From a bacterium (GTDB lineage: Bacteria; UBP6; JAFGXH01), in the NCBI GenBank assembly GCA_016936735.1, contig JAFGXH010000353.1, forward strand, positions 1 through 34,150: a stretch of 34,150 nucleotides of DNA, written 5' to 3'. This document shows positions 1,790 to 29,848 of this stretch, one piece after another. Each line of letters begins with the position of its first letter. Position 1 is the stretch's first letter. The notes below the pieces were generated by a model. That model worked only from the letters and a program-made list of their open reading frames with translations, made no database searches and had not been told where the DNA came from. Position numbers and translations under genes: made by a program.

Positions 1790-4700
1790 TTAAGCAACAC
1801 TCATTCCTAACTCTTTTCTTAATGTGAAGTAATCTTCAGATACAATATAGTTTAAAATGTCTGCCATTTTTAATTTGTAGTCTGCTTTAGATAAAATACC
1901 AACCATTTCACGCTTAAACATTCTATCAAGAAGCTCTAAATCTTGAGTTAAAACATAAGCCATTCTGTTTCCTGTGAACTCAACAGCGTTTAACCATTTA
2001 TTTAAATCAATACTTCCTTTTGCTCTTACAAAAGCCTCAACAACATCACGAATACTCTCTACTGTCTCTGGTGCAGTATGTTTTTCAAAATGTTTTGTTA
2101 TTGCTTGAAGCTGATCTAAATCTCCTGAAACATTCATTGATGGAATAATATAACTTAAAACACCAATAAATATATTTGTAATAACTCTACCAGGAACAAT
2201 TTTTGCTAAAACATACTCTGGACGAAGATATGTCATCGCTTTTCCAAGAATATAAAGAAGATCTTTATCACTTGTGTTGTTAAAAATATCAAAGCCAGAT
2301 TGAATCATAACTTTTCCACCATTAACACTTTGAATCTCAAATCCACTTTGTCCCTGACGAACATGAACCTCAAATGCTGGAAGATTCATAAATGTTAATA
2401 ACATTTTATAAACACTTCCAAACAGATTTGTAGTTTTTCCTAAATCAATCATCTCTTTTGGATTTAGTTTTGCAGGTTTTGAATATAACTCAACCATTGG
2501 AACACTCATTGCGAGAAAAATATCTGTCACCTGATTTTTTAAACGATGATGAGTTATTAAATCCCATTGATATTTTGTTAATATTTGACCCCATTCAAGT
2601 TTACTTTTCCCTTTAAATGCAGATAAAATCTGTTTATGTTCATCTCCCATTTTATCAAGATATCTTAAAACTCTTGCAACAACATATGCTTTATCAAGTT
2701 TTTTCTGTTGAACAAAAAGATTAAAAAGCTTTTGATAATTAAGTTCAGAGAATGGATTATCTTTAATATTTTTTCTTAAAAGCTCAATCTGTTGTTCTAA
2801 AGAGATTCCAGCATGTGCATAAATGTCTGCTAAAGCTAAACGAATTGATGTATTTTTTGGATCCAATTTTAAAGCCTGCTCTAAAGCTGTTGCAGATTGT
2901 TTAAAATCTTTTAATCTATTAGCACATATATCAGCAATTGTTAACCAGTAACTTTTCTGATTTTTAGGATCATCTTTTTTAATTCTATCAACATAGAAAG
3001 AGATTAATTGAGGCCATAAAGAGAGTTTTTTTAGATAGTTTTCATAACCAACAATAACCTCTTTATCATCAGGAAGAATCTCATAAAGCTCTGTATAGAT
3101 TTGAAGAGTTTTTTTATAATCTCCAAGACCTGTTTCATATATTTTGAGAAGTTCAAATTTATAGTCAATTTTTTGCTCCTCATTTGTTTCAATTTTGATT
3201 AAACGTTCAAGAGTCTCAACACATTGTGGAAAATATCTATTTTTTGTATAGGTATCTAAAAGAATCATTAAAAGATTTTTGTCATTTCCACCAACTAAAA
3301 ATACCTCATGTAAAAACTCAAGATATTTCGCCTCATTTTTTAGATCTTTTCTATAGATTTCAGCAATTTCAAAATATAAATCTACAAGTGGTTGCTGCTC
3401 TTGAAGAAGGTCTGCAACCTCTAATCTTACAGATATTGCACTCTCAATATTTTGCTCTTGATCTAAAATTTTATAATAGAATGTTAAAGTCTCAATATCT
3501 GTTCTTTGGAATGTTAGTGCATCCTCAATATATTTTTTGGCCTTTTTATCACCACTTAAATAGCTATTTTTACCTAAATGTTTATTTAATTCATAACGTA
3601 TGGAATCATCAAGTGATTTAAAATTCATCTCAATATATTGAAATATTCTTAAAGCTTTTCCCCACTCTTTCATTATCTCATAAAGCTCACCAAACTCATA
3701 AAAAGTTTCATAATCTTTTTTATTTAGATCAGAGCTTTTTTTGTAATATATTGAAGCCTGTTCGAAAGCATCAAGATTTTTTGCAACTCTTGCCAGTTTT
3801 AAATAGAGTGTTGCATCTTTTTTAAGTGTAATTGCTCTATCAATCTCATTTAAAATATCTTTAATAGACTCAAACATAGAGTTATCATAAACATATTCAA
3901 GAATCATAATTGCAAGATCTGTATCTTTTGCATTAAATTTTAGTGATTCAACATAATAGAAAATAGCTTTATTAGGATCTCCCATTTTATGTTGAAAAAC
4001 ATCACCAATATCTTTCAGTGCATCAGCCTTCTCTTTTGGAATTCTTATATGTTCAATAGAGTCTATTTTGTATTGAAGAAGTGTGTCATAGTTTTCCTGT
4101 TTTTTAGAGATCTCTTCAATGTATGGAAAAGCATTTTTTTCACCATTGTCATAGGCCATTTTAAAATAGTGACCTGCATTCTCTTTATCATTAAGCTGTT
4201 TATAAAGAATTTCAGCTAACATAAAAGCTGTTTTTCCTCTCTCTTCATCAGAAATATGATTTAATTTTAGTTTTAAAAGATCAGCTTTTTCTGAATTCAT
4301 TTTTTTAGTATTAAAAATTCTCATCAAAAGATTAAATGCCTGTTCATTTTTAGGGTCTGTTTGAAGAACATTATAGAAATAATCAATGGCCTGTTCCTCA
4401 TTTTTAGCTCTTAAAAGATAGTAGTTACCAAGTTGAAGATTTAAGTCTGAAAGTTTACTATTTCTCTCTTCAGTCTCCTCTCTTTTTAAGATAATTGCAA
4501 TCTGTTGAGAGAGGATATAGGGATCTGAAGGAAGAGCCTCTAGAGCCTTTTCATAAGCAGCAAAAGCCTCATCATTCTCTTCAAGATGAGTAAATAAAAT
4601 ATCACCAATTTTAATAAGAATTGAACCTTTAACAGCTCTATCTGTAACTGTTTCAATAATAGACTCATAAAAACTTAAAAGCTCTTCATGCATACCTGTA

Positions 4701-5515
4701 TTTTGAACAACCTCTTCAAGTTGTTCTTTTAATTTTGTATCACGCGGATTTTTTTTAAAGTTTTCACAAAGACTTAAAAAAACTTTATCTTTATTTGGAG
4801 CCTTATTTGTATAAATATCAACAAGTTTTTCTGTATATAACTCTTTTGTTTTTGGATCTAAACGCTCTTGAAGTTTCTCTTCATAGAGTTTTGCAAGAGT
4901 TATCCATTCACCAACAGACTCAAGAAGCTCTTCAAGTTTATCAAAATTATCTTTTGCTTTAACTTTATCCTCTTCTAAAAGAAGTTGATAATATTTTATA
5001 ACTCTTGGAGTCTCTCCAAGTTGTTCTGCAATATCTTTCATACTATATAGAGTCTCAATTTTCACTTTTTTATTTTTTTGAAACTCAATTGCTTTCTCTT
5101 GTGTATTTAGCCAATCTTCATAGAGATTCTCTTTAAAATAACATTCAGCAAGCATCTCATAGGATTTTTCAAAATTTACATCAGAATCTATAGATGAGCG
5201 AAAAATAGCAATCATATCTTTATATCTTTCAGCACTATTCTCCTGCTTGTAAATAAGCATTCCCCACTCATAATAGTTTCTTGCTAGAAATGAGAAAACA
5301 TTCTCTTCAAGTCCTAAATCAGGAATCTCAACACTAACTTGAAGAGCCTCCTGAAGACGCTCATTAACATTTTGAATAATCATCTCATAAGCCTCTTCTG
5401 CCTCTGCAAAAAGCTTAGATTGAACACAAAGATTTTTATACTCCACATAGAGTGATATGTTGTCTGGGTCCTGTTCAATTTTTTCTAAAATCTGTTCAAT
5501 TCTTTTCTCGTTCAC
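1790..5515 (-). CDS. Large tetratricopeptide-repeat protein with a C-terminal degenerate M48-like domain
   Basis: About 1241 aa from the GTG at 5515 (track start 5572). Many TPR-like helical pairs (e.g. 'YEKALEALPSDPYIL', 'YYFNVLQTDPKNEQAFNLL', 'LEQALKLDPKNTSIRLALADIYAHAG'). Start refined: GGGGGA SD precedes GTG at 5515 and a sigma70-like promoter overlaps the track's ATG. Confidence 0.85.
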   Translation of the reverse strand: MNEKRIEQILEKIEQDPDNISLYVEYKNLCVQSKLFAEAEEAYEMIIQNVNERLQEALQVSVEIPDLGLEENVFSFLARNYYEWGMLIYKQENSAERYKDMIAIFRSSIDSDVNFEKSYEMLAECYFKENLYEDWLNTQEKAIEFQKNKKVKIETLYSMKDIAEQLGETPRVIKYYQLLLEEDKVKAKDNFDKLEELLESVGEWITLAKLYEEKLQERLDPKTKELYTEKLVDIYTNKAPNKDKVFLSLCENFKKNPRDTKLKEQLEEVVQNTGMHEELLSFYESIIETVTDRAVKGSILIKIGDILFTHLEENDEAFAAYEKALEALPSDPYILSQQIAIILKREETEERNSKLSDLNLQLGNYYLLRAKNEEQAIDYFYNVLQTDPKNEQAFNLLMRIFNTKKMNSEKADLLKLKLNHISDEERGKTAFMLAEILYKQLNDKENAGHYFKMAYDNGEKNAFPYIEEISKKQENYDTLLQYKIDSIEHIRIPKEKADALKDIGDVFQHKMGDPNKAIFYYVESLKFNAKDTDLAIMILEYVYDNSMFESIKDILNEIDRAITLKKDATLYLKLARVAKNLDAFEQASIYYKKSSDLNKKDYETFYEFGELYEIMKEWGKALRIFQYIEMNFKSLDDSIRYELNKHLGKNSYLSGDKKAKKYIEDALTFQRTDIETLTFYYKILDQEQNIESAISVRLEVADLLQEQQPLVDLYFEIAEIYRKDLKNEAKYLEFLHEVFLVGGNDKNLLMILLDTYTKNRYFPQCVETLERLIKIETNEEQKIDYKFELLKIYETGLGDYKKTLQIYTELYEILPDDKEVIVGYENYLKKLSLWPQLISFYVDRIKKDDPKNQKSYWLTIADICANRLKDFKQSATALEQALKLDPKNTSIRLALADIYAHAGISLEQQIELLRKNIKDNPFSELNYQKLFNLFVQQKKLDKAYVVARVLRYLDKMGDEHKQILSAFKGKSKLEWGQILTKYQWDLITHHRLKNQVTDIFLAMSVPMVELYSKPAKLNPKEMIDLGKTTNLFGSVYKMLLTFMNLPAFEVHVRQGQSGFEIQSVNGGKVMIQSGFDIFNNTSDKDLLYILGKAMTYLRPEYVLAKIVPGRVITNIFIGVLSYIIPSMNVSGDLDQLQAITKHFEKHTAPETVESIRDVVEAFVRAKGSIDLNKWLNAVEFTGNRMAYVLTQDLELLDRMFKREMVGILSKADYKLKMADILNYIVSEDYFTLRKELGMSVA

Positions 5516-5543
5516 AAAATCCCCCAACGCTTTTAGAGTTGAA

Positions 5544-5572
5544 AGTATACTTTTTTTAAAAAAAATAATCAA
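5544..5572 (-). promoter_or_regulatory. Sigma70-type promoter for the large TPR gene
   Basis: Reverse strand TTGATT (5567..5572) - 17 bp - TATACT (5544..5549), about 30 bp upstream of the GTG start at 5515. Confidence 0.6.
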
Positions 5573-12232: not shown

Positions 12233-12239
12233 TTTTTCC

Positions 12240-12659: not shown

Positions 12660-12692
12660 TATTACTCTCCCTATTTATGTTAAAAATAGTCT

Positions 12693-13712
12693 CTATTTTT
12701 TCCCTTTTTTATTTTTGTCAGATTTTTTAGATTTTGAAACAGATTTTTCTGTTTCAATACTATTTTTTTCATTTTTTATATCACTTTCAGTGGATTTCAA
12801 CTCACTGTTTATTAAAGATTCACTATTTTTTTCTTCAGAATTGCTATTTTCTTCAGAAATATTACTATTTTTTTCATCAGAGATTTCATTATTTAATGAA
12901 CTCTCCACTGAATTATTATTGATTAAATCTTTTTTTTCAAGTGAAACACTATCTTTTTTTTCTGAATTTAGTTCAATTTTTTTTTTTGAATCATTTTTTG
13001 AATCTAAATTTGATACACTAGTGTTCATTTTTTTTTGAGTGGGGTTATTGTCTGGAGTTTCACTCTCCTCATCTCTTTTAATGTAGCTCATAAGAACCCC
13101 AGTTAAAACATCAGTATTTGTTTGAATAACTTTAACTTTTCTAGTGAAATAGTTGAATGCAATAACTGCAGGAATCGCAACAGCAAGACCAACTCCAGTT
13201 GCAATAAGAGCCTCTGCAATACCAGCCATAACAGCTGCTTGACCAGCTTTTAACATATCTCCACCTGCTGAATTAGATGCCTCTGCAAGGTCTTTAAAAG
13301 CTTTAATAATACCTAAAACAGTTCCAAAAAGACCAATAAAAGGTGTATTATTACCAAGTGTTCCTAAAACAGTTAAATTTCTTTCTAAAACAATCTTATT
13401 TGTGCTTTTCATAGATTCAATTGTCTCTTCAACGCTTTCTGCACCAAAATCAATCATTTTTACACCCTCAATAAGTGCATTTGTTTCAAATGAGCGTTTT
13501 TTTGAAAGTTCAGATTTAACAGATTCAATATCTCCAGAGAACAGAAGTTCTCTAAATTTAGATTGAAATTTATTAATATTAAGTCTATATTTAAAATAAA
13601 AAAAACCTCTCTCAACCATAATTGCAATCTCGAGCATAAATAGCCCAATTAATAACCATAATATCCACTCTGCACCAAAATTTGTAGCTTTCAAAAGTTC
13701 ATGGGTCAGCAT
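12693..13712 (-). CDS. exbB: MotA/TolQ/ExbB proton-channel family protein with long low-complexity C-terminal tail
   Basis: 'LGTLGNNTPFIGLFGTVLGIIKAFKDLA...AVMAGIAEALIATGVGLAVAIPAVIAFNYF' canonical ExbB/TolQ core; AGGAG SD before ATG at 13712. Confidence 0.9.
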   Translation of the reverse strand: MLTHELLKATNFGAEWILWLLIGLFMLEIAIMVERGFFYFKYRLNINKFQSKFRELLFSGDIESVKSELSKKRSFETNALIEGVKMIDFGAESVEETIESMKSTNKIVLERNLTVLGTLGNNTPFIGLFGTVLGIIKAFKDLAEASNSAGGDMLKAGQAAVMAGIAEALIATGVGLAVAIPAVIAFNYFTRKVKVIQTNTDVLTGVLMSYIKRDEESETPDNNPTQKKMNTSVSNLDSKNDSKKKIELNSEKKDSVSLEKKDLINNNSVESSLNNEISDEKNSNISEENSNSEEKNSESLINSELKSTESDIKNEKNSIETEKSVSKSKKSDKNKKGKK

Positions 13713-13748
13713 AAATCTCCTTTTACAAGTCAATCAACTCAAAACAAC

Positions 13749-14037: not shown

Positions 14038-16932
14038 ATGAAAAAGCTTTTTTTATTTATAGCTTTTCTGTTTTTTGGAACACTCACAATAGGTTGTGAT
14101 GATCCATCTGAGCCTGCTTGTGGTGGAGCTTGCGACTCAGGATTCTATTGTGATAAAACTTTAGATTATTGTGTTCCATATGAATGTTCTGAGCAATATC
14201 CAACAGGAAGCTGTTCAAGTGAAGAGCCCGCAGGAGGTAAAAAATCACTTGCTTGTGAAGATGGTGTTTGTGTTCAACAACCATGTTCAGCAAAATACAA
14301 GGGTGGATATTGTGGTGAGGGAGAGATTTGTAATTCTTTATCAGGTGTTTGTGAAACACCTGAATGCTCTGCAACATATCCAAATGGAAGTTGTCCAGAT
14401 GGTCAAATGTGTAATGGGGGTGTTTGTCAAAATTTCTCCTGTTCCGCACAAAATCCAAATGGAAGCTGTCCAACTGATCAATATTGTGATGCTGGAGTTT
14501 GTAAGCAGTATCCATGTTCATCATCTCATCCAACAGGATTATGTCCTAATGGACAAACCTGTGTCTCAGGAGTTTGTATTGATGATACAGATAGATGTTC
14601 AACTTCAAATCCAAATGGTACTTGTCCATCTAGCTATGCTTGTATAGATGGTTTGTGTCAACTTCAACCATGTTCAGAAGATTCCCCTGAGGGAAGTTGT
14701 TCAGATGGGGAGTATTGTAGTAGAGAGTACACTGGTGGAGAATATATTGTTGTGTGTAAGCCATTAGATTGTTCTGCTGAAAATCCAACTGGAGCCTGTC
14801 CAAGTGGTCAGGTTTGTATTGATGGAACATGTGCTCAAGATAGTTGTGCTGGAACATGTGGACCAAGAGAGGTTTGTGAATTTGGTCAATGTAATCCAGA
14901 TCCATTCTATTGTTCAGCAGACTCTCCAAGAGGTTGGTGTCCAAATGGACAGAGCTGTATTGATGGAAATTGTAAAACACCAGAGATCTCACCTTGTGAT
15001 AATATTCAATGTGATACTGGAAAACAGTGTTTAGTGATAGATGGTGCTGCTGTTTGTACAGATGATATATGTTCTGACTCAAACCAAGATGGACTTTGCA
15101 ATGATGGAGATATCTGTGTAAATGGTGTTTGTATTGAGGATATATCAGAGTTATGTAATGGTGGTTGTTCAGAGGGAAAAGTCTGTAATACATCTACTGG
15201 ATTATGTGTTGATGATCCATGTATTGGTATAACTTGTCCTGATGTAAATGCAATGTGTACACCAAAATTAACAGACACAACAACACCATATCGTTGTATT
15301 TGTAAACCTGGATATGCCTTAGATTTTAATCAGGGAATCTGTATTTTTGATGGTGATGATTGTACAGGTGTTGATTGTGGTGAAGGGGTTTGTCTTTTAA
15401 GTGAATATGAACCAAATGGTTATTGGTGTCAATGTAATGAAGGAATGGAGTATTTAAATCCACCCTATAAAAACTTCTGTATTGATCCAACACAATATAA
15501 CTACTGTGATGATTCTTGGAGTTGTGAACCTCATGGGGAGTGTGTTGTTGTTGAACGAAATGGAGATCGTTATGCTGAATGTCAGTGTGATGAGGGATAT
15601 CTTTTTAACTTAGAAACTAGAAGTTGTGAAGCAGGAATCTCTTGTGGATATCAGATATGTAATCCATTAGGTGAGATTTGTGAAACTGTTGGTAATAATA
15701 GCTATTGTGTATCTCAAGCATGTAGTGCTCAGTATCCAGAGGGAGATTGTGGCTCAAATGGAATCTGTGTTGATGGAACTTGTATAACTCAAGAGTGTAG
15801 TTCTCAATATCCATCAGGATACTGTATTGCTGGATATCAATGTCATAATGGAGCTTGTGAACATCCTTCAACAGCTGGTCCAAAACTTATTGGAGAGAGT
15901 TGTGATCTTGAAGCAAATAATTGTGAAGCAACTGCATTATGTTTTCCAACTCAAACAGGAGAGGGAAAATGTATTCAAATGTGTGATGTTTCAAATCCAA
16001 GCTGTAGTGATCCATTCCAAGTTTGTATAAGTCGTGGAGTATTTCCAGGACAGGATTATGACTATATTGGTGTTTGTGTTAAAGATGAGGGTTGTAATAT
16101 TGCAACAAGTGATGGTTGTCCTTATGAAGAACAGGTATGTTTAGCATTCCAAAATACATCTATCACACAATGTTTATATACAGGACCAAGACCATTAGGA
16201 GCTGCTTGTAATACATCTCAAGCAACACAATTGTGTCAAGAGGATTTTCTTTGTGTTGAAGGACGTTGTGTTCCAAACTGCTCAAGATATATGTATGATT
16301 CAGATTTTTGTTATGACTACTTTAACATGAAGTATGAGTTTAAGGATTTAACATTACCATATTTTGGAGTAGCAACATTTAGAACAAATACTGAAAAAGA
16401 TAGTGTAACTCTTTGTAATCCTGAGTTAGGAAATACTTGTGAGGGCTCTCAAACATGTATTCTTGTTCAACAAAAAGATACAACAAATACTGCATCAGCT
16501 CAAATTGGTGTTTGTACAGAGTCTTGTAATCCTGCTGGAACTCCATTTAGAACACAATGTAGTTCGGAGAAAATATGTTATAATGCATACTCTGGTGTTG
16601 GTGGAGTATGTTTACCTGAAAATGGTTGTGATCCATATTTAACAACTGGTCATGGTTGTAATGGTACAGAGGCATGTTATGCTATTACTGATAATGCAAC
16701 AGCTTGTATGAAGGCTGGTTGGGCTATTCCTGGAGATAATTGTGACTTTACAACAGATTTAAATATTTGTCAAATGGGACAATGTATTGAGGGTAAATGT
16801 AGAACTGTTTGTGATTTAAGTGACTCATCTTTTGAATGTCAATTCAGTGGAAATAGTTGTGAATCAACTACTGATTCATATTACTCAAGTAGTTCATCAT
16901 TTGGAACATCTCTTTATGGTGTTTGTAAATAA
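14038..16932 (+). CDS. Cysteine-rich repeat surface/periplasmic lipoprotein
   Basis: Lipoprotein signal MKKLFLFIAFLFFGTLTIGC with Asp at +2; many modules of the form CS-x3-P-x-G-x-C-P-x-G-Q-x-C-x2-G-x-C spaced about 25 aa; EGF-like segments further in ('CKPGYALDFNQGIC', 'CQCDEGYLFNLETRSC'). Confidence 0.85.
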   Translation: MKKLFLFIAFLFFGTLTIGCDDPSEPACGGACDSGFYCDKTLDYCVPYECSEQYPTGSCSSEEPAGGKKSLACEDGVCVQQPCSAKYKGGYCGEGEICNSLSGVCETPECSATYPNGSCPDGQMCNGGVCQNFSCSAQNPNGSCPTDQYCDAGVCKQYPCSSSHPTGLCPNGQTCVSGVCIDDTDRCSTSNPNGTCPSSYACIDGLCQLQPCSEDSPEGSCSDGEYCSREYTGGEYIVVCKPLDCSAENPTGACPSGQVCIDGTCAQDSCAGTCGPREVCEFGQCNPDPFYCSADSPRGWCPNGQSCIDGNCKTPEISPCDNIQCDTGKQCLVIDGAAVCTDDICSDSNQDGLCNDGDICVNGVCIEDISELCNGGCSEGKVCNTSTGLCVDDPCIGITCPDVNAMCTPKLTDTTTPYRCICKPGYALDFNQGICIFDGDDCTGVDCGEGVCLLSEYEPNGYWCQCNEGMEYLNPPYKNFCIDPTQYNYCDDSWSCEPHGECVVVERNGDRYAECQCDEGYLFNLETRSCEAGISCGYQICNPLGEICETVGNNSYCVSQACSAQYPEGDCGSNGICVDGTCITQECSSQYPSGYCIAGYQCHNGACEHPSTAGPKLIGESCDLEANNCEATALCFPTQTGEGKCIQMCDVSNPSCSDPFQVCISRGVFPGQDYDYIGVCVKDEGCNIATSDGCPYEEQVCLAFQNTSITQCLYTGPRPLGAACNTSQATQLCQEDFLCVEGRCVPNCSRYMYDSDFCYDYFNMKYEFKDLTLPYFGVATFRTNTEKDSVTLCNPELGNTCEGSQTCILVQQKDTTNTASAQIGVCTESCNPAGTPFRTQCSSEKICYNAYSGVGGVCLPENGCDPYLTTGHGCNGTEACYAITDNATACMKAGWAIPGDNCDFTTDLNICQMGQCIEGKCRTVCDLSDSSFECQFSGNSCESTTDSYYSSSSSFGTSLYGVCK
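14185..14985 (+). repeat. Tandem array of diverged ~75-bp (25-aa) four-Cys coding modules
   Basis: CSAKYKGGYCGEGEIC.., CSATYPNGSCPDGQMCNGGVC, CSAQNPNGSCPTDQYCDAGVC, CSSSHPTGLCPNGQTCVSGVC, CSTSNPNGTCPSSYACIDGLC, CSAENPTGACPSGQVCIDGTC, CSADSPRGWCPNGQSCIDGNC. Confidence 0.85.
15721..15859 (+). repeat. Second, two-copy cluster of the same four-Cys module
   Basis: CSAQYPEGDCGSNGICVDGTC and CSSQYPSGYCIAGYQCHNGAC. Confidence 0.75.
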
Positions 16933-17314: not shown

Positions 17315-20300
17315 TTATTTAACTTTTATGGATATTCCAAGTGATTCTCTAAGAGAGAGATATTGATCTGATATAGAGAACTCAAGTATATCATCTATTT
17401 TTTCTTGAACAGATGCACCTGATAATCTATTTTGATCCTCTTTTATAACTTTTATTGCACTATTTACATCACCACAGAATAGAAGAGCTACTCTATTTGC
17501 TGTAAATTCAGCACCTTTTAGCCATAAATTGATATTTACTCCCCCTTTAGAAGCGGTTTCAAGTGTTAATGCAACATCTGCAGGTAGAGATTTTTTCAAA
17601 TCTTTTTGAAGTTTTGGAAGTTTAGTAACAATTGAGCTATTATTTAAAGATTCAAGAGTTTGATAAACCTCTTGAACTGTTGTTCCTGCTGATGTTGCCA
17701 TCTGAATCATATAAAACTCTGGTAGTGCAAGAGTAATATATTTAGCCAAATAGAAACCAGCTTCAGCCTCATCTCTATCAACAAGCATATCTGTTCCAAC
17801 AAGAAAAAAATCTGATTTATTTCCTTTACCAAAAAAACCACTTGAGCTTATTGCTGAATCAAATTTTAATCCTTTATGATTATTTTTGATATGATAGAAA
17901 TCTAATCCAGTAACACCTAAATTTTGCATAACATACTCTGCAAGTTTATAGAATCTTGTGTTAGGATCTAAACCATCTTTTTTAGGATCTATATCCTTCA
18001 TATCTTTCATTTTTTTATCACAAAGAGATTCAGATGCAATTGTTTGAACCCCCTCCATAATTTTTGAAACATCTTTGTTAAGATGGTTATGATTAAGATA
18101 TTTTTCAAAAATATTTTTACCAACAGGTTGTTCAAGACGTCTTAATGTTGCTGATTTATAACCATTATAAAACTCTCTTTCATCCTCATGAGCTGCCCCA
18201 ATTTGGAATAGAAATGCAGAATAACAGTAGATTTTATCATAAAGTTTTTTCTCATTATAAAGTTTTATTAATGAGTGAATTGAGTCTGTGCTATTTTTTG
18301 CATTTTGTTTAACTTTAGCTTTATGAAGAGCAATTGCTTTATCATAAAATTGAGGTATTCTTTCATAAAAATCAATTAATATTTGGTAATATTTTTGTTG
18401 ATTTGGATGAAGTTGTCCTAATGTTTCATAAACCTCAACAGCTTTTACAAAATCCTGAATAATATCTTTATAAATAACACCCAGTTTTTCAAGAAGATAT
18501 GTTTTTAGCTCAGCATCCTGCTCACCAAGAGTTGAGTATACTTTTTTGTAAACCTCTTCAAGATCTTTAAATGCCTTAGCTCCCTCTAAAATCTGTTCAA
18601 TTGCAGATAACACTTTTGTGTTTCTATAATTTAAAGATAGAACTTTTAATAAGTAGGAGACAGATTTTTGAGGATTATTAAGTTTCGCATAGTATAAATC
18701 TGCAAGAGTATAACAGATTTTTGCAGCACTATCTTCACTTGTTTCAAGTTTTAATTGCTCCTCTAAAACAGAGATCATATTTGGATAGTTTGCTGTTTTT
18801 GAGTATATCTCATACATATGAGTTAATAATTCAATATTTTTAAGCCCCATTGATATCACTTTTTCAAAATGAGAAAGGGCTTGAGAATAGCTTTGAAGCT
18901 CATTTTTATAAATAAGTCCCATCTCATAATTGATTTTAATAATCTCCTCTTGAGATGTTATTTTTTGAATCATTTTATTATAATATTCAATAACTTTATG
19001 CCATTGAGCCCCCTGTTTATAGGCATCAATTGCATATTTTAAAGCATCAATATTATACTCATCAACACTTAAAGCTCTATTAAAATATCTATTACTTAAT
19101 TCAAAATTCTCTACTCCTGCATATGCAACACCCAATTTTACATATAAAGAACCAATCTCATTGGATTCACAAGAGTCAAAATAGTGAACTAAATACTGTT
19201 TAGAAGCAGATATAACTGTTTCATATTTTTTTAATTCAAATGAAACATCAGTTAATAACTCCAAATTCTCTCTATAAACTCTATTTAAATTAAAAGATTT
19301 CTCTGATAGTTCAAAAACTTTTGCTGGAGAGTTTTTGAGATATCTATTTGCAAATGCATCTCTATAGTAGTGAACCTCTTGAGGAATCTCTTCAGATTTT
19401 AATATAAGAGAACTATATTTTTCATAAAGAGAGCTTAGTGAATCAAACATTTCTGATTCAAAATATAGTTTTGATAGATATTCTGTTGAGGTTTTTGTTG
19501 GTTTTAACTCTAAACTCTCTTCAAAATATGATATAGAGCTTGAGGTATCCTCTAATTTTTCATAGTAAAGAACACCTAACTCATTTCCAATAGAGACTTT
19601 CTCATCCTCATCAACACACTCTTTTAGTCTATCAAGATAGTTAACAACATTTGCATAATCCTCCTCTTTATATGCAATATCTTTTAACATTCTAAGTGCA
19701 TCTGCATGATCAAATCTACTTTGTACAGCCTGTTCAAAAGCACCTTGTGCTTGATATAAATCATCCATCTCATCAAGATAGATTCTACCAATTTCATAAT
19801 ATGCCTCTGCTGCTTGATTTGGATCTGATGTTCCTGCTGCAACACTTGATAATAGATCTATTGCATCATCCCATTGTTGTTGAGTTTTAAATATTCTCAT
19901 TAAACCATCAACAGCAACCTCTTCAACAGGATTTTCAGATAAAGAGTACTCAAAATACTCTTTTGCTTCATCATTTAAAGATAATTTATCAAGATAGATA
20001 AGTGCAACTCTATTCAAATATAACACTCTCTGTTCCTGATTATCCTCTTGATCTAAAACCATTTTATAAAGAGAGACTAGTAATTCCCACTCTCCACTAT
20101 TTTCATAAATCTCTTCAAGAGCTTTAAATGCAATAGAATTATTTGGTTCATACTCCTCTAAAACAGAACGATAGAGCTCTATTGCACTATTTAATTCAGT
20201 TTCATCTCTTTTTAAAATCTCTGCCTTTTTTATAATAGAATCAATTTTAAAAGAGCTATTCTGCTCAATTAAATGATTATAAACTATTAACAAATCCTCT

Positions 20301-23300
20301 GTAGAGTTTTTAGATTGATAATACTCTTCAAGAATAGAGTATGCCTCTGCAGAATTTGGATCTCGTTTTAAAATCTCATTATATGCCTCTATTTTTAAAG
20401 AGATATTATTTTTCTCTTCTGCTATTGTAGCTATTTTTTGATATAACTCAATTTGAAGATCTAAATCATCAAAAACAGAGATTTTATGTTTATATATTTT
20501 TACCAAAGAGTTAAAATCCTCTATATCAGAGTAGATTCTTTCCAAATTATCAAGAGCCTCTAGCTCTTCTGGATAGGTTTGAATCATTTTTTCATAAAGT
20601 TTAGCTGTTCTTTCAATAGAGTTAATATTTGCTTCAAAATGAACCCCTAATTTATAGTAGTACTCTCTTTGAAGACCACTATCCTCTTCAAGAGATATGA
20701 GTTTTTCATAAACTTTTGCAAGCTCTTCCCATTGATTAATAAGAAGAAATAGCTCTTCAAGTTTAAGGTATATCTCTTTATTCTCTGGCTGATAAGAGGA
20801 TAAGAGCTGATATGTTTTTATTGAATATTCAGCTAAATTAAGCTCATCCCTATATACCTCTGCAACTTTAAAAAGAAGATTATCTCTTATTGAGTTTTCT
20901 GTTGTTAATGGTAAAATTCTTTCTGCACTTTTTATAAATCTTTCCCATAACATTGAAACAGAAGCTAATTGATAGAAAAGATCTATTAAAGAGTCCTCAT
21001 TTGGATATAAAGAGTATGCTTTTTCAAAAAATGAAAATCCCTCTTCATAATCAGCACTATTCTCAATAATAACAGTTACTATTTTCTCATAAACAGGAAG
21101 TTTATTCTCTATCGCATCTATTTTTAATTTTAAAATAGAGACTAACTCATCCCACTCAGTTAAAGATTCATATAAAGACTCTATTCTCTCAATAACAGTA
21201 AGATTCTCTGGTTCTAATTTTAAAATCTCTTTAAAATATGATATAGCTCTATCTGGAGAACTTAATTTATCAAGAGATATCTCTGCCATTTTTTCATAAG
21301 TAGATATTATCTCAGTTTGTTCAGAAAGTATAGAGCGTTTCTCTTCTAAAATATATATAAGTTCATCAAACATCTCCAGTTGTTCATAAACCTGCTCTAA
21401 TCTATCTATAACAATACTATTTTTAGGGTTTGCTTCAAGATGTTTTATTGATATTTGAATCATCTCTTCAAAAGCACTATTTTCAAATAATAAAGATGCA
21501 AACTCATCATAATATGCTAAAAGAGTTTTCTTAATTGGAAGATTTAGTAGATTCATTTGAGATATAATATAACTATCCTCAAATTTTTGTTCCTCCTCCT
21601 CTAATCCCTGTTCCAAAACCTGAATCAACTGTCTTATTGTTTCAAATTGCTCATCAAGAGAATCAAATTTTCTATAAATCTCTTTCATTCTCATAAGAGA
21701 GAGAATATGAGTTGGTTCAACTTCAAGTATTTTTTGATAATTTTGCAAAGCAAATGATGGCATATTTAATTTATCTTCACGATAATATATATTAGCCAAT
21801 TTTTCAAAATGAGATATTAATTGAGGCTCCTCAATCTCACCAGCAAATTCTGATAGATAATTTTCATAGTACTCTGCTAAAAGATCCCAGTTCTCATTTT
21901 TACCATAATACTCTATTAACTCAATAAATGCCTCTTTTTTGTCTATTCCAAGCTCAAGAGTCTCTTTCCATAATGATTCAGACTCATTATTGGACTCTTT
22001 TTTATAGATTTTAGCAAGTTTTAAAAGAGTAGAACTTCTCTCCTCTTCACCAATTTCAGCATTTAAAATTAGTTTATAAATATCAACTAATTCTCTATTA
22101 TTATCTAGAGATAATGTCTCTAATGCTCTTAAAGAGTGAAGATGGTCTGGTTTTAACTCAATTAATTTTTTGTAGCTATCTTTTGTTTCTAGTGTTTTTC
22201 CTAACTCCTCTTGAAGAGCTGCAAGTTTTAAATATGTATCAATTTTTTCATCATTGCTATCCATTAAAGGAATTAAAGATATATAAATTGATTCAAGCTC
22301 TGCAAAAGCTCCCTCCTCCTGATAGATTAGCTCTAGTTTTTTTAGTACAGAGTAGTCCTCTCTATAATTTGAAAGTTTTAAAAATGAGTTTTTAGCTTTT
22401 ATCATATCTCCTAAAAACTCAAAATAGATATTACCAGATTTATAATGAATCAATTGTTGTAACTCAACATTTTCAATATCTGGCAACAGTTCAGATAGAA
22501 GAGTAACAAGATCTTCATAATTTCCTAATGTTTCAGAGACTTTAAAAAGATATCCAAGAGTTATTTCACTAAAATCTATTATGAATGCTTGAACTAAATT
22601 TCTAAAAGCAGCTTCAAAATCTCCAATATACTCTATTTGAGTTAATGCTATAGTTAGAAATAGCTCTTTTTTATCATTTTCATCTTGTAGGAATTGAAGT
22701 TTTTTGTTTAGAATCTCTGTATAACGATCCCACTCTGAAACAGTTTTATATGTATTTTCAAGAATTAATAGAACCACTTTTTGTATTTCAGAACTATCTG
22801 AAACACTTAAAATAGATTCAAGATCATCATAAATCATCGCTTGATTTACATCTATTTCTAAAATAGAGCGATAAATCTCAACAGCCTCCTTACTCATAGA
22901 GAGGTTCTCTTTATAAATCTCTGCAACTCTATAAAGAGTAGCTATTTTTCCATCAATATCATCAACATATTTAACCTGCTCTTTTAAAACATCAACAAGA
23001 AGTGTATAGTTTTCTAGAGATTCAAGGTAATGAGCAGCTTTTTCATACCACTCTATATTCTCATTTTCAAGTTTTATTAACTCTAAAAGAGCCTCTACAG
23101 ATTTAGGCTGATTCTCTGTGTAGTTTTCTGATATTGAGAGTTTATGTTTTAATATTTCAAATTTTACCTCATTCTCAAGAGATGGCAAAATCTCATCAAT
23201 AACAGTTATAAAATCACTATAGTTTCCTGTAGTATCAAGAAGAAGATATATTGTATCTAAAACATCACTATTTTGAGGCTCTTTTTTAAAGAGAGTGAAT

Positions 23301-26300
23301 GCAAATTTTAAAGACATCTCATACTGTTGTAGATTGTCTTTATAGATATTTATAATTTTATTAATAAAGGCTTTTTTTGCCTCCTCATTCTCTATTAAAT
23401 TTTCAACTCTCTCTAATAAAAGAACTAATTTATCCCAAAATCCAAGAATCTCATAAATTGGTTCAAGAATTGTTGTAGCCTCTGCAACAATTGAGTCATC
23501 TTTTGCTAGTTCTTCAAGGTATTTTAACCCATTTTCATTATATGGATTAAGTTCAAGGAGTTTTTGAAGATATTGAACAGCATATTCACTATTTTTAAGA
23601 TTTACTGCAGAATTAACAGCTCTTTCTAAAAGGGTATTTTGAATTAACTCATCATCTGTGAAATATCTGAGTTTTTTCTCAAAAAGATTATCTAGTGATT
23701 GATAATCTGATGTAGATTTAACTATATCTTCAAGTTTCTGATATATCTCAATATTATCAGGTTCCAAATCAATCATAAGCATTAATATTTCAACTGCTTT
23801 CTCAGGTTTTTGAAGTCGATTAAATAGTAAATCTGCCCCTATATTAAGATACTCTTTTTTCTTATCTCCATCCTCTTCAAAAGATGCAGCATTTTGATAT
23901 AAAACAGCTAACTCTTCCCAACTCTCTAATGAGTTATATATCTCTCTTAAAATGGTAAAAATCTCATTTTCATGAAGATTAATAAATACTCTTTCATAAA
24001 CTTCAGCAGCCTCTTTTTTTAAATCCATCTTATTCAATAAAATAGATGCACCTGTTTTTAGTAGTTCAAAAGAGTCATCCTCAATAGCTTCGGCTCTAAA
24101 CATAACTATATCTTTTAGTTTTTCCCAATCCTCTTTTACTTCAAAAAGCTCCTTTAACATCTCAAAAAGCTCTGTTTGTTGAGGAGATGCATAGAATGCT
24201 TTAAGATAGAAAATCTCTGAACTATCATCACGTTGATGATTTTCATATATTTTTCCTATCTCATTATAAATCATCCAAGAGTACTCTTTTTTCTCATCTG
24301 CAATAGAGTCTAATTTCGATGTTAATGTATCAACATCCATAACTCCTTGATATGAATTAGAGATTTTACTAAGAGTTGATTCTACATCTTTGGTAATTAA
24401 AAGAATTGGAAATAGTGACTCTAATGTTTTTTCTCTATTTTTTAGAGATGATTCATAAATTGTTAAAATATTTTTAAAGTAGAGCTCTTTTATTGATATC
24501 TCATCCTCTTTTGAGATAAGAATATTATAAAATGTAACTAAATCTTCAAAAAGTTTTCTATTAGTTAAAAATGGAATAACCTCTTCACTATATTTTTCAA
24601 GAAGTTCACTATTCTCATCTAGAAGTTGAAATAGTCTCTCTCTTAATTTAGATTGATACTCTCCAACAAGCATATCATGAGACTCAAAATAGTGCTCAAC
24701 CGCTTTATCAATATTACCCATTTGAGTATATATAGAAACAACCTCTGATACTATTTTTAAAAACTCCTCTCCACTATTTTTCAATTGGTGTTCCATTCTA
24801 AAAAGTATTTTTAGAATATTCTCTTTATCATCTTTTAATTGATAAAACTCTTTTTTTGCAAGATAGGCATCAATAATAGTTTCATCAATATTAATAATTT
24901 TATCTAAATCTAAAAGAGCCTCATCTATTTTATTAAAATAGAGTCCTTTTACTTTTGCAACAGCAATTCTATTTTTAATTTTTTCATCATGATTTTTAAG
25001 AAGTTTATATTTCTTCTCCAAAATCTCAAAAAGCATATCATAATTTTTTGAGTCTAAATATATTTTCTCAAGAGCTGTTAAAACTGTTAAATTCTCACTA
25101 TCCTCTTGTAAAATTTGATTATAAAAACTTTGAGCTTTTTTATGTTCTTTTAGGTATATATCATATATTTTACCCAAGCGTGCTAAAATATTGATTTTAG
25201 CCATTTTCTCAGATACATCATCTTTTAATTTTAAAAGAGTTGCTGTTAAATCTTGAAAATCTGCTTTTTTCTCAGAAAGAAGCTCCAACTCATTTAAAAG
25301 CTCATTATTATCAAGAGATTTTAAATATATTCCCTTTTTGATATTATATGCAGCTTCAAAATCAGCAAATTTTTCATCAAGAAGTGTTGCATATTTGTAG
25401 TTTAGTGATTGAAGTGTACTTTTATCAAAATCTACAGATAAAAGATGCTCAAATAGTGCTTTTTCTAAATCTTTAAACTCTGTTTTTGAGAGATTTGAAA
25501 TCAATAGATTTGCAAAAGATAAATCAGAGTGTTTTTTTAGAATGGATAGTAGAGTCTCATAATACTCTCTATCAGAATACTCTAAAAGCGATTTTTCTGT
25601 ATATTCAATAAATTTTGGCAAATCATTTTTCTCTTCTAAATAACATAGTGCAATTTCAGAAAGAGTCTCTTTTTTATCTTTTCCCTGTTGTAAAACAGAT
25701 TTTAATAGTGCAACTCTTATCCAAGAGTCATACTGTTTTGTTGTTGAGTATATTTTTAAAAGAGTATTAACTGTTTTCAATTGAGTTGAATCAATCTCTA
25801 TAATCTGTTCTAAATATTTTGCAGCATCTTCAGAAGAGCTCCATTTTTCAAGAGCAATGAGAGCCATTTTTTCTAGAAGAGTTATTTTTTCTTCTGAGTT
25901 TAAAAATTTTAATTTTTTCTCATAAGCAGTATTAAGAGATTTATAATCATCTATTAATTCAAGTATATCAATAATATTATTAACATACTCCTCTACCTCA
26001 GGTTTTAACTCTATAAGTTCAAAAGATAGCTGTTTACTATCATCATAACGCTCTAAATCATTGTAGATATTTATTACTCTATTATAGAGATTCTCCTTTA
26101 AATCAACATTTTCAACAACTCTTAATATCTCAATAAGAGTGTTTGCTAATAAAACTTTATTATTTAATTCAGCTGCTATTTCAGCTAAATTATCTAAAAT
26201 AGAGATCTCCATTGTCAGAAGAAATTTTCCTTTCTCATTTTGAAAACATTCATCAAATTTTTTATCCTCAATATAAAGAATAGAAAGCTCATTTAATATT

Positions 26301-28816
26301 TGAACTCTCTCTTCAATATTAGATATTAATTGTTGTTTATTGCCTAATAAAGAGTACATCTCCTCTCTATTGTTTTCAAGTGAATAGATTTGATAAAGTT
26401 TATCAATAATCTCAATACTATCTTTGAATGCATTATGGTAAAAAAGAAGGGCATTTTTTAGATATGATTCATCTGAAATATATACTTCAGCAATTGCAAT
26501 TGCTTTTAAGGAGTAGCTTTTTTTTATCTCTAACTCCTCACACTCTTTTATAATGCGATAGATAACTTGGTAGTAATTTTCCCATAACTCAAGTGTTGTA
26601 AAAAGAGAGTCAATCTCTTCAAAATCTCTTTTTTTAAGTAACATTAATACAACAATTTCAATGATATTGCTATTTTTATCATATTGAAGATACTCTTTAT
26701 AGTATTTTATAGCATCATCATTACTATCAAGATTTTCAAATATTTTTGCAAGTTTTAAAATCACATCTGCTGTTGGGTCAAGGTTATAAAGATGAAGTAA
26801 GACATCTTTTTGTTTTACTTTATCATCCTCTCCCTCTGCAAACTCAAGGATTTTTTGAAGAGCAAAAATATTATTAGAATCAATTGTTAATATTTTTTCA
26901 AGAACATCAATAAATAGAGCTTTCTCTCTTTTAATATTCTCCTCAACAAAATGATAAAGGCTAATCAAAAGCTCTATTTTTGAGTCATCACTATTACTTA
27001 AAAATACCTCTTTTAACATAACATGATATAGTTTATCTGGTTTTTGAGCCTGCTGATAAATCTGTTTAAGTCTATCAAGAGCATCACCATTTGAAGGGTC
27101 TATATTAAGAATCTGTTCAAAATAAAATGCTCCTTCAAGAGGTTTTTTTAAATGATCTATATATGCCTGTGCAACCTCAAAAAATATCTCTATTTTTCCT
27201 GATTCATCATCAATTGCATCTGCTTTTTGAGCAAGAATTTTGATATATTCATTCCAGCGATTACTTGTTTTACTTTTTTCAAGAAGAAAATTTAGTGCTG
27301 GAATGTGAGTTGCATCATGTTCCAATAGTTTTTTATAAAGCATTGTTGGGTCTTGATTTAATTGAGTAATACTCAACTCTATTAGCTCTTCATAAAGATT
27401 TACTATTTCAGAGAGATTTTTATCACTTTTCTGTTCAAGATAGTCTATATCACCCTTTAACATCTCCATTAAGGCACGCCATTTTGCACCATCACGATAT
27501 ATTTTTTTTAAAGACTCTTTTGCATCACTATTTTCAGGGTCTAATTTAAGAATAGCTTTATATGAGTCTGTTGCTTTAAATATATTTTGAGATGCCTCTG
27601 CAACATCTGCTATCTCTTGATGAATTTTGATCTGTTCCTGAATATTTTCAGTCTCTTTTAGATTTTTTGTTAAAATCTCCAACACTTTTCTTGAGTTTCC
27701 TGTAAATTTATAATACTCAAGATAGATATAGTCATATTTAAAATTATCTGGATCTAATCTTTGAGATTTTTTTGCAAATTTCTCTGCTTTTTCTAAATCA
27801 TCCATATATTCAGACGTAAACTCAACAATAAAATTTGTCAGAAATATCTGATAATCTTTAGTTAAATCTTTATCAGACATTGTTTCTGCTAAAGCCAAGA
27901 TATCTTTATGATGACCATTTTCAATAGCATAATCAACAGCATTTTTAAAAATCTCCTGATTATTTGGGTCTATGGATAATAGTTGTTCATAAATTTTAAA
28001 TCCACTTTTTGAAACAACTTTAGGATTTTTAAATAGCTCTTTTAGTAAAAGAGTATAGTTTGTATTGTTTGTTGATTTATAAAAATCCATAAGAGACTCA
28101 ATTAGGGTCTCGAATGTATTTGTTTCAATAAAAACACGATTCATTAAAAGAGGAATATCCTCATTTTCGGGATAAAGTCTTATTGCCTCTTTTAAATAAT
28201 ATTGTGATTTTTCAATATCATCAGAGTTTGTTAAATAAAGATTAGCTATATTTATACACATAACACTTTTTAGTGATGGATCCTCAATTTGAGCAAGCTT
28301 ATCCTCATAGTTTTTAACAATTTTTTCCCAATTCTCTTGTGCCATTAAAATATCTTCAACATACTCAGATATCTCTTCTGAATCTGGATTAATTTGAAGT
28401 GCAATATTAAAAAATTTGAGTGCAACAACTGAATCAAGAAGAATGTCTTTATTTAAAACACCTAACTGAGTATAAATTTCAGCCTTTTTTAAATCATCCT
28501 CAACAATAAGGACAAAATAGTCCATTAGTTGAAGAAGCTCTTTATATTTTCCAGCTGCTTGATAGTATTTTTTTAATTTTTCAAAATAGTTTTCTGTTTT
28601 GTAAAAATGAAAAAGTTTCTGTAAAACCGCCTCATAAAGCTCTTCAGGAAGGGAGTTTTGAACATCAAAGAGTTCTGAAAGTAAATGATATCTCTTTTGA
28701 AGAGAGATATTTTTCTCTGTTAAAAGCTGATGAAACAGTGGTATAATCTCTTTTGAGGAGAGTTTATCCAAAATTGGCTGAATTGTATCATGTTGTTTTA
28801 AAAGCTTTTTAATCAT
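17315..28816 (-). CDS. Giant tetratricopeptide-repeat protein (3833 aa) with a C-terminal degenerate M48-like domain; AgmK/GltI-like architecture
   Basis: Uninterrupted 11.5-kb ORF with GGAGGG SD; pervasive TPR-like helices with 'LxPxN' inter-repeat turns ('ILKLDPENSDAKESLKKIY', 'ILEVEPTHILSLMRMKEIY', 'ILKLEPENLTVIERIESLY'); no signal peptide evident. Confidence 0.9.
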   Translation of the reverse strand: MIKKLLKQHDTIQPILDKLSSKEIIPLFHQLLTEKNISLQKRYHLLSELFDVQNSLPEELYEAVLQKLFHFYKTENYFEKLKKYYQAAGKYKELLQLMDYFVLIVEDDLKKAEIYTQLGVLNKDILLDSVVALKFFNIALQINPDSEEISEYVEDILMAQENWEKIVKNYEDKLAQIEDPSLKSVMCINIANLYLTNSDDIEKSQYYLKEAIRLYPENEDIPLLMNRVFIETNTFETLIESLMDFYKSTNNTNYTLLLKELFKNPKVVSKSGFKIYEQLLSIDPNNQEIFKNAVDYAIENGHHKDILALAETMSDKDLTKDYQIFLTNFIVEFTSEYMDDLEKAEKFAKKSQRLDPDNFKYDYIYLEYYKFTGNSRKVLEILTKNLKETENIQEQIKIHQEIADVAEASQNIFKATDSYKAILKLDPENSDAKESLKKIYRDGAKWRALMEMLKGDIDYLEQKSDKNLSEIVNLYEELIELSITQLNQDPTMLYKKLLEHDATHIPALNFLLEKSKTSNRWNEYIKILAQKADAIDDESGKIEIFFEVAQAYIDHLKKPLEGAFYFEQILNIDPSNGDALDRLKQIYQQAQKPDKLYHVMLKEVFLSNSDDSKIELLISLYHFVEENIKREKALFIDVLEKILTIDSNNIFALQKILEFAEGEDDKVKQKDVLLHLYNLDPTADVILKLAKIFENLDSNDDAIKYYKEYLQYDKNSNIIEIVVLMLLKKRDFEEIDSLFTTLELWENYYQVIYRIIKECEELEIKKSYSLKAIAIAEVYISDESYLKNALLFYHNAFKDSIEIIDKLYQIYSLENNREEMYSLLGNKQQLISNIEERVQILNELSILYIEDKKFDECFQNEKGKFLLTMEISILDNLAEIAAELNNKVLLANTLIEILRVVENVDLKENLYNRVINIYNDLERYDDSKQLSFELIELKPEVEEYVNNIIDILELIDDYKSLNTAYEKKLKFLNSEEKITLLEKMALIALEKWSSSEDAAKYLEQIIEIDSTQLKTVNTLLKIYSTTKQYDSWIRVALLKSVLQQGKDKKETLSEIALCYLEEKNDLPKFIEYTEKSLLEYSDREYYETLLSILKKHSDLSFANLLISNLSKTEFKDLEKALFEHLLSVDFDKSTLQSLNYKYATLLDEKFADFEAAYNIKKGIYLKSLDNNELLNELELLSEKKADFQDLTATLLKLKDDVSEKMAKINILARLGKIYDIYLKEHKKAQSFYNQILQEDSENLTVLTALEKIYLDSKNYDMLFEILEKKYKLLKNHDEKIKNRIAVAKVKGLYFNKIDEALLDLDKIINIDETIIDAYLAKKEFYQLKDDKENILKILFRMEHQLKNSGEEFLKIVSEVVSIYTQMGNIDKAVEHYFESHDMLVGEYQSKLRERLFQLLDENSELLEKYSEEVIPFLTNRKLFEDLVTFYNILISKEDEISIKELYFKNILTIYESSLKNREKTLESLFPILLITKDVESTLSKISNSYQGVMDVDTLTSKLDSIADEKKEYSWMIYNEIGKIYENHQRDDSSEIFYLKAFYASPQQTELFEMLKELFEVKEDWEKLKDIVMFRAEAIEDDSFELLKTGASILLNKMDLKKEAAEVYERVFINLHENEIFTILREIYNSLESWEELAVLYQNAASFEEDGDKKKEYLNIGADLLFNRLQKPEKAVEILMLMIDLEPDNIEIYQKLEDIVKSTSDYQSLDNLFEKKLRYFTDDELIQNTLLERAVNSAVNLKNSEYAVQYLQKLLELNPYNENGLKYLEELAKDDSIVAEATTILEPIYEILGFWDKLVLLLERVENLIENEEAKKAFINKIINIYKDNLQQYEMSLKFAFTLFKKEPQNSDVLDTIYLLLDTTGNYSDFITVIDEILPSLENEVKFEILKHKLSISENYTENQPKSVEALLELIKLENENIEWYEKAAHYLESLENYTLLVDVLKEQVKYVDDIDGKIATLYRVAEIYKENLSMSKEAVEIYRSILEIDVNQAMIYDDLESILSVSDSSEIQKVVLLILENTYKTVSEWDRYTEILNKKLQFLQDENDKKELFLTIALTQIEYIGDFEAAFRNLVQAFIIDFSEITLGYLFKVSETLGNYEDLVTLLSELLPDIENVELQQLIHYKSGNIYFEFLGDMIKAKNSFLKLSNYREDYSVLKKLELIYQEEGAFAELESIYISLIPLMDSNDEKIDTYLKLAALQEELGKTLETKDSYKKLIELKPDHLHSLRALETLSLDNNRELVDIYKLILNAEIGEEERSSTLLKLAKIYKKESNNESESLWKETLELGIDKKEAFIELIEYYGKNENWDLLAEYYENYLSEFAGEIEEPQLISHFEKLANIYYREDKLNMPSFALQNYQKILEVEPTHILSLMRMKEIYRKFDSLDEQFETIRQLIQVLEQGLEEEEQKFEDSYIISQMNLLNLPIKKTLLAYYDEFASLLFENSAFEEMIQISIKHLEANPKNSIVIDRLEQVYEQLEMFDELIYILEEKRSILSEQTEIISTYEKMAEISLDKLSSPDRAISYFKEILKLEPENLTVIERIESLYESLTEWDELVSILKLKIDAIENKLPVYEKIVTVIIENSADYEEGFSFFEKAYSLYPNEDSLIDLFYQLASVSMLWERFIKSAERILPLTTENSIRDNLLFKVAEVYRDELNLAEYSIKTYQLLSSYQPENKEIYLKLEELFLLINQWEELAKVYEKLISLEEDSGLQREYYYKLGVHFEANINSIERTAKLYEKMIQTYPEELEALDNLERIYSDIEDFNSLVKIYKHKISVFDDLDLQIELYQKIATIAEEKNNISLKIEAYNEILKRDPNSAEAYSILEEYYQSKNSTEDLLIVYNHLIEQNSSFKIDSIIKKAEILKRDETELNSAIELYRSVLEEYEPNNSIAFKALEEIYENSGEWELLVSLYKMVLDQEDNQEQRVLYLNRVALIYLDKLSLNDEAKEYFEYSLSENPVEEVAVDGLMRIFKTQQQWDDAIDLLSSVAAGTSDPNQAAEAYYEIGRIYLDEMDDLYQAQGAFEQAVQSRFDHADALRMLKDIAYKEEDYANVVNYLDRLKECVDEDEKVSIGNELGVLYYEKLEDTSSSISYFEESLELKPTKTSTEYLSKLYFESEMFDSLSSLYEKYSSLILKSEEIPQEVHYYRDAFANRYLKNSPAKVFELSEKSFNLNRVYRENLELLTDVSFELKKYETVISASKQYLVHYFDSCESNEIGSLYVKLGVAYAGVENFELSNRYFNRALSVDEYNIDALKYAIDAYKQGAQWHKVIEYYNKMIQKITSQEEIIKINYEMGLIYKNELQSYSQALSHFEKVISMGLKNIELLTHMYEIYSKTANYPNMISVLEEQLKLETSEDSAAKICYTLADLYYAKLNNPQKSVSYLLKVLSLNYRNTKVLSAIEQILEGAKAFKDLEEVYKKVYSTLGEQDAELKTYLLEKLGVIYKDIIQDFVKAVEVYETLGQLHPNQQKYYQILIDFYERIPQFYDKAIALHKAKVKQNAKNSTDSIHSLIKLYNEKKLYDKIYCYSAFLFQIGAAHEDEREFYNGYKSATLRRLEQPVGKNIFEKYLNHNHLNKDVSKIMEGVQTIASESLCDKKMKDMKDIDPKKDGLDPNTRFYKLAEYVMQNLGVTGLDFYHIKNNHKGLKFDSAISSSGFFGKGNKSDFFLVGTDMLVDRDEAEAGFYLAKYITLALPEFYMIQMATSAGTTVQEVYQTLESLNNSSIVTKLPKLQKDLKKSLPADVALTLETASKGGVNINLWLKGAEFTANRVALLFCGDVNSAIKVIKEDQNRLSGASVQEKIDDILEFSISDQYLSLRESLGISIKVK

Positions 28817-28828
28817 AAAAATCCCTCC

Positions 28829-29848
28829 TTATTTTTGACGATTCAATTCTTCTTGTTTTTTTATTCTAATAATTTCATCTAATTGATCCATTTGTTCTCT
28901 AGCCTCTTTTGCTTGAGCTCCTGTTGGGCTTAATTGAATAAATCTCTCTATCATTTTTCTAGCATCCTCATACTCCTCTAATAGGTAGTGAGTCATTGAG
29001 AGATTATATGCAGACTCTTTAAGAGCAGGATCTTTTTTTAAAGCAAGTTGAAATTGATTTTTTGCCTCACTAAGAAATGCTGTTTTTTTACCATTAGCAT
29101 CATCTCTATCCTGTTCTAATTGACTCTTTTTTGACTCTTCATCTTTTGATAATTTTTTCTTTTTCTTAACTTTTTCATCAATTTCAGTTAAATCTGTTTT
29201 TGCTTTTTTCTCTTTTAAGTAAAAATCATTTCCTATTTGGAAAAGAACTGTACCTAATTTTGATAAAACGACAGGATCTTGATTATATTTTACAGCCTCT
29301 TTTAGTATTTTTTGAGCCTGCTCAATATTATTCATTCTTAGAAGGGAATCTCCAAGAAGACCATAAACACTGCTATTATTGTTGTTTATTTCTAATGTTT
29401 TTTGAAACCACTTTACAGCCTCTTCAAAATCATTTTTTGTATAAAATGCTTTTCCTAAATAGAAAAAAACTTTGTCATTTTTTGTTACTGTTGTAAATGG
29501 TTTAAGAACTTTTATTGCTCCATCACCCTCATTTTTTTGAATAAATAGATCTGCAAGATATATTGCAGCCTCTTCATGCATTGGTTTTAACATCAATACT
29601 TTAGAAAGAGATTCAATTGCTTGATCTGTTTTTTTTTGCTGAATACTTAATAGTGCATAATAGTAGTGTGGATCTGGATTTTTAGGATCCTTCTCAATGG
29701 CTGATTTAAAATGAATTCCAGCCTCCATGTATTGACCCGAGCGAAGAAACTGAATTCCTTTACCTAAATCTCTCTTTGCAGCAACCTTATCATGGTCACA
29801 ACCAGAGAGTATAAAAATCGTTAAAAGTAGCAGAAAAAAATATCTCAT
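28829..29848 (-). CDS. TPR lipoprotein
   Basis: Lipobox MRYFFLLLLTIFILSGC; TPR repeats 'GQYMEAGIHFKSAIEKDPKNPDPHYYYALLSI', 'DFEEAVKWFQKTLEINNNNSSVYGLLGDSLLR'; 12 bp upstream of the giant TPR gene, same strand. Confidence 0.88.
   Translation of the reverse strand: MRYFFLLLLTIFILSGCDHDKVAAKRDLGKGIQFLRSGQYMEAGIHFKSAIEKDPKNPDPHYYYALLSIQQKKTDQAIESLSKVLMLKPMHEEAAIYLADLFIQKNEGDGAIKVLKPFTTVTKNDKVFFYLGKAFYTKNDFEEAVKWFQKTLEINNNNSSVYGLLGDSLLRMNNIEQAQKILKEAVKYNQDPVVLSKLGTVLFQIGNDFYLKEKKAKTDLTEIDEKVKKKKKLSKDEESKKSQLEQDRDDANGKKTAFLSEAKNQFQLALKKDPALKESAYNLSMTHYLLEEYEDARKMIERFIQLSPTGAQAKEAREQMDQLDEIIRIKKQEELNRQK

Follow-up and report, generated by a model that had tools for sequence, protein, structure and literature searches.

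The closest described relative of the protein considered here is GltI/AgmK of Myxococcus xanthus (MXAN_4863), a 4132-residue protein with tetratricopeptide repeats (TPRs) and neither signal peptide nor transmembrane segment, encoded in the G1 gene cluster; within the family, only the M. xanthus gene is known to be required for gliding (PMC3169522). The published table assigns GltI only TPR motifs, and that paper does not mention a peptidase or M48 (PMC3169522). A review points out that it has yet to be examined whether GltI threads through the peptidoglycan, and how (PMC12288465). M48 peptidase folds are combined with TPRs in BepA/YfgC, in which an edge strand has a non-proteolytic, chaperone-like role (PMC8423444). 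Inactive metallopeptidase homologues generally reuse the peptidase fold for protein interactions, and a 2024 review of metallopeptidase pseudoenzymes contains no M48 case (PMC11266112). Few components of the Myxococcus gliding machine are as poorly understood as GltI. A 2024 paper in Science Advances reportedly concerns GltJ and focal adhesions.

The window, by which we mean the whole 34,150-nucleotide stretch of UBP6 bacterial DNA analysed here (contig JAFGXH010000353.1), encodes a giant TPR protein with a conserved C-terminal domain (Table 1). A sequence-only reading had proposed that this protein changes character after its TPR array and ends in a degenerate M48-like domain, and the three peptides quoted for this each occur once in the translation (KSDFFLVGTDML at residues 3667-3678, DRDEAEAGFYLAKYIT at 3680-3695 and NINLWLKGAEFTANRVALLFCGD at 3761-3783). 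The change of character is real, since the Pfam TPR hits, among the matches listed, all lie upstream of approximately residue 3400, and the last 328 residues have no Pfam or NCBIfam model above cut-off and no reliable PDB sequence match. Searches with the single domain against Pfam, NCBIfam and PDB sequences returned nothing reliable, and a profile HMM of 31 members (alignment A3) gave chance hits in PDB sequences without finding M48. One weak Pfam match (E 0.027), with a helical domain of primase, was discounted because it is confined to the N-terminal linker helices. The interval first marked for the domain, 17,315-18,010, does contain the M48-like core, which makes up about 190 residues at the end of the 3,833-residue protein, but falls short of the whole conserved unit (Table 1).

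Table 1. Features of the window that bear on the giant TPR protein and its C-terminal domain.
Feature	Coordinates	Strand	Remarks
Giant TPR protein, GltI/AgmK homologue	17315..28816	-	3833 aa, ATG start, no internal stop
TPR lipoprotein gene (predicted)	28832..29848	-	12 bp upstream of giant; lipobox-like LSGC read from sequence
Conserved C-terminal unit, 300 aa: family-specific linker helices, pseudo-M48 core, LR..LG tail	17318..18217	-	alignment A3 and AlphaFold model
Pseudo-M48 core, aa 3611-3798	17423..17986	-	hhalign, Foldseek, tree
Degenerate HExxH helix, aa 3680-3695	17732..17779	-	Lys3692 at first zinc-His position
EFTANR, aa 3770-3775, equivalent to ExxADR motif	17492..17509	-	third-ligand Glu3770 and Arg3775 retained
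1260-aa TPR paralogue with same C-terminal pseudo-M48 domain	1793..5572	-	E 7e-13 to giant's domain
Pseudo-M48 unit of 1260-aa paralogue	1793..2692	-	GKAMTY replaces HELGH; Lys1111, Glu1198

Homology to M48 peptidases emerges when profiles are compared. Alignment by hhalign of 76 family members with 18 M48 proteins from related genomes gives a score of 64.7 (probability 95), against 18-21 for the best of 100 column shuffles and 14-22 for reversed alignments; the match to HtpX/BepA-type M48 proteins alone is weaker, at 27.7 versus 18.0 for the best shuffle. The profile-profile alignment reproduces the M48 register read from the sequence, the RDEAEAGFYLAKYIT helix being matched to the HELGH helix, and WLKGAEFTANR to ExxADR. 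Direct searches with the family HMM also recover intact M48 proteins (L205, E 1e-11; L207, E 2e-10; L084, E 2e-8). These data support identification of the C-terminal domain as a relative, in all likelihood catalytically dead, of M48 peptidases. A BepA-like arrangement, which had been named as something that would support the reading, is not what is found: BepA/YfgC is periplasmic and has the M48 domain first, an intact zinc site and a short TPR part, whereas here the TPRs come first, the zinc motif is absent and there is no signal peptide. A BepA-like architecture is rejected on domain order, zinc site and location, and BepA may serve as a mechanistic parallel rather than an architectural relative.

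As judged from its sequence, the window giant is a GltI/AgmK homologue. Like the members of that family (approximately 3,500-4,150 residues) it consists of a very long TPR array with neither signal peptide nor transmembrane segment by hydropathy, shares a 72-residue double-TPR period and the pseudo-M48 end, and aligns co-linearly with a Myxococcota GltI over about 1,980 residues up to the last residues, with 21% identity (E 2e-77). A search of the window's genome with the C-terminus of the Myxococcus protein matches only the giant and its 1260-residue paralogue, both in the window. A fasttree phylogeny places the giant on the GltI side, and IQ-TREE does not fix its place within the family. The Myxococcota member itself is, on gene order, length and reciprocal search, GltI/AgmK. 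In a Myxococcus-like genome (G181) a member of about 4,140 residues is followed just downstream by a 701-residue zinc-ribbon/GYF/TonB protein of the GltJ type, and upstream lie a 639-residue TPR protein, a short 242-residue protein in the place of GltH, a GltG-type FHA-TonB protein, a GltE-type TPR lipoprotein and a GltD-type TPR protein of 1,284 residues, corresponding to the published M. xanthus G1 cluster (PMC3169522).

The gltI-gltJ pair, with gltJ directly downstream, recurs in 18 of 18 Anaeromyxobacter-branch loci, and GltJ is also encoded at GltI in G055 and G117. GltJ is absent downstream in all 13 other Myxococcota-type loci (L108, L109 and L111-L121, of Polyangium type and others, with only 274 bp available downstream in L119), and adjacency to gltJ is therefore not a universal feature of GltI. 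The window gene differs from GltI/AgmK in belonging to another phylum and in lacking an adjoining gltJ, which was sought there without success and is absent beside the giant of genome G002 too. Directly after the giant in G002, where gltJ would be, there is a response-regulator-like gene (G002:C188:5791-7173, minus strand). Both giants are preceded within 12 bp by homologous TPR proteins (33% identical), the one in the window being a predicted lipoprotein.

The domain is conserved well beyond the window. Orthologues of the giant's last 328 residues are 89% identical within the genus and 40% identical within the family, and divergent copies occur in other phyla. Of 195 Myxococcota genomes (the phylum of G055, with Anaeromyxobacter, Polyangium and Myxococcales bins as named relatives), 176 contain it by a ten-member profile (A1), usually in TPR proteins of about 4,100 and 1,750 residues; genome contigs were scanned with seven closer GltI domains rather than with the very divergent ten-sequence alignment, in which no segment was sufficiently conserved. 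Its C-terminal position is constant, at 0-20 residues from the end in all 68 TPR-type hits checked. Two more TPR proteins of the window's genome, on contigs C132 and C296, end in divergent copies by profile.

The zinc site is lost, as described below, and GltI/AgmK ends in this domain as well, so that a docking role is more probable than an enzymatic one. We consider it reasonably probable that it is an M48-derived, non-catalytic head on a TPR solenoid, most likely docking to a membrane partner, and the binding or assembly module proposed earlier would agree with its conservation, with the order of the neighbouring genes and with the link to GltI. The best-surviving alternative, which we regard as unlikely, is that the domain is kept only for folding or stability as a cap without a specific partner; it does always occupy the last part of the array, where solenoids need caps, but a conserved fold of 190 residues with a near-invariant Arg and a mostly retained Glu is more than a cap requires, and it has been kept in two subfamilies with very different TPR array lengths. 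Distinctly improbable is a role as a decoy or partner that regulates an active M48 peptidase of the same cell instead of serving as a scaffold head. Active relatives can be regulated by pseudopeptidases, according to one review (PMC11266112), and the window's genome encodes one intact M48 protein of the neighbouring subclade; against this, the neighbourhoods of the giant in the window, G002 and G181 contain no M48 gene, and the domain goes together with giant TPR arrays and partly with GltJ.

The absence of HExxH noted from the sequence extends to the whole family. At the aligned columns the window giant has K-Y-I-T-L, and none of 126 non-redundant homologous domains has the motif. The first His is replaced by Arg or Lys in 114 of the 126, the catalytic Glu mostly by Ala (Glu in 10), and the second His by Phe, Leu or Tyr (His in three). 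In contrast, the third-ligand Glu of ExxAD is retained in 83 domains including that of the window, and the Arg of ADR in 124. Invariant columns of A3 are E237, T239, R242, D250 and R290. Continued peptidase activity, whether through an unusual metal site or some other chemistry, is thus very improbable: the retained third-ligand Glu would be compatible with it, but not the substitutions at the three other positions, and A3 has no alternative invariant His/Cys cluster. A salt bridge between the Arg/Lys and the Glu is only suggested by their joint distribution (both present in 80 domains, Arg/Lys without Glu in 34, Glu without Arg/Lys in three, neither in nine), because these counts come from related, non-independent sequences. 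A more specific form of the docking-head reading is tentative and rather doubtful: zinc would be replaced by a fixed Arg/Lys opposite the third-ligand Glu, the head of GltI, as a scaffold of bacterial focal adhesions, would dock GltJ, and the module would serve several envelope machines, both across the Myxococcota and in the low-GC lineage, of another phylum, to which the window belongs.

Partly degraded standalone proteins connect the domain with intact peptidases. When 338 genomes were scanned with the A3 profile, all six short proteins hit across the core (288-506 residues, inspected) are M48-type, the other hits being TPR proteins and one 77-residue fragment matched outside the core. Three have an intact HELGH (L219, L220 and L221), and three have decayed forms: RELGH in L222 (Pfam M48, E 4e-21), REVAH in L223 (E 1e-6) and RAVAH in L218 (E 0.002, just missing the Pfam cut-off). 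In a maximum-likelihood tree (IQ-TREE, 89 rows, with canonical HtpX/BepA-type M48s as outgroup) the 64 TPR-linked domains cluster (support 100/96), L218 and L223 join them (99/93), and the resulting clade groups with an M48 subclade that contains L219-L222 (100/99), the HtpX/BepA-type proteins standing apart. The standalone subclade (L219-L221, L077, L078, L083, L084, L205 and L207) comprises the nearest intact relatives of the window domain in the tree; these short proteins share the core fold predicted for it, the ExxADR helix and the order in which the elements follow each other, and carry HExxH, whereas the window domain lacks both zinc-ligand His residues and the catalytic Glu. The RELGH protein L222 lies inside the intact subclade, suggesting that the first His was lost at least twice.

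On the docking-head reading, an M48 metallopeptidase ancestor would have lost zinc binding and catalysis stepwise, the first His changing to Arg or Lys, followed by loss of the Glu and then of the second His. The resulting domain would have been fused onto the end of a very long, presumably cytoplasmic, TPR solenoid and retained as a non-catalytic protein-binding head. In the Myxococcota it caps GltI/AgmK, a scaffold of the gliding machine, and would most likely dock the end of the solenoid to a membrane partner, which would be GltJ where that is encoded next door, with contact perhaps made by way of the edge strand and the substrate groove of the M48 fold. An equal job in the window's organism is conceivable.

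Predicted structures agree with the profile evidence. AlphaFold2 models were obtained for the 300-residue window unit (pLDDT 89.8, pTM 0.89), most of which is helical, and for the GltI core from Anaeromyxobacter oryzae (pLDDT 90.8); they have three confident strands in the M48 order. Foldseek comparison of the window model with the PDB returned Ste24p, BlaR1, BepA and ZMPSTE24 as the top seven matches, and for the A. oryzae model zincins fill the first nineteen places (anthrax lethal factor, Ste24p, minigluzincins, BlaR1 and ZMPSTE24). The E values are weak for both (0.05 and 0.13 at best, with TM-scores mostly 0.2-0.4), so that this check, although its best matches are M48/M56 and other zincins, backs the sequence evidence and does not stand alone; the details of a zincin fold are those that the models suggest. 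The peptidase fold first proposed is supported by the profile register, the zincins among the best PDB matches and the partly degraded standalone proteins that bridge the gap. That the C-terminus is merely the end of the solenoid or an unrelated helical cap resembling M48 by chance, as its mostly helical model and the helical chance hits of a pairwise PDB sequence search might suggest, is already strongly contradicted and extremely improbable given the three strands in M48 order, a profile score three times that of the best shuffle, and the graded intermediates in a resolved tree.

We found no prior description of a pseudo-M48 end of GltI in the openly readable literature searched, and its novelty is not certain. 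A discrete end domain provides a definable piece of GltI for deletion, purification and binding tests, and the half-degraded M48 proteins form an ordered series from zinc peptidase to scaffold part of a kind that is rarely visible.

Other genes of the window deserve mention. Consecutive genes for ExbB, ExbD and TonB_C proteins (11378-13733, minus strand) lie 3.6 kb from the giant and could possibly encode a proton-driven envelope motor. Convergent with the giant is a gene for a 964-residue Cys-rich protein (14038-16932, plus strand) that begins with a lipobox-like sequence and contains numerous short Cys repeats, for which Pfam gives weak EGF-like matches only. A polysaccharide flippase-like gene (344-1780, minus strand) starts 9 bp past the 1260-residue TPR paralogue, with which it probably shares an operon.
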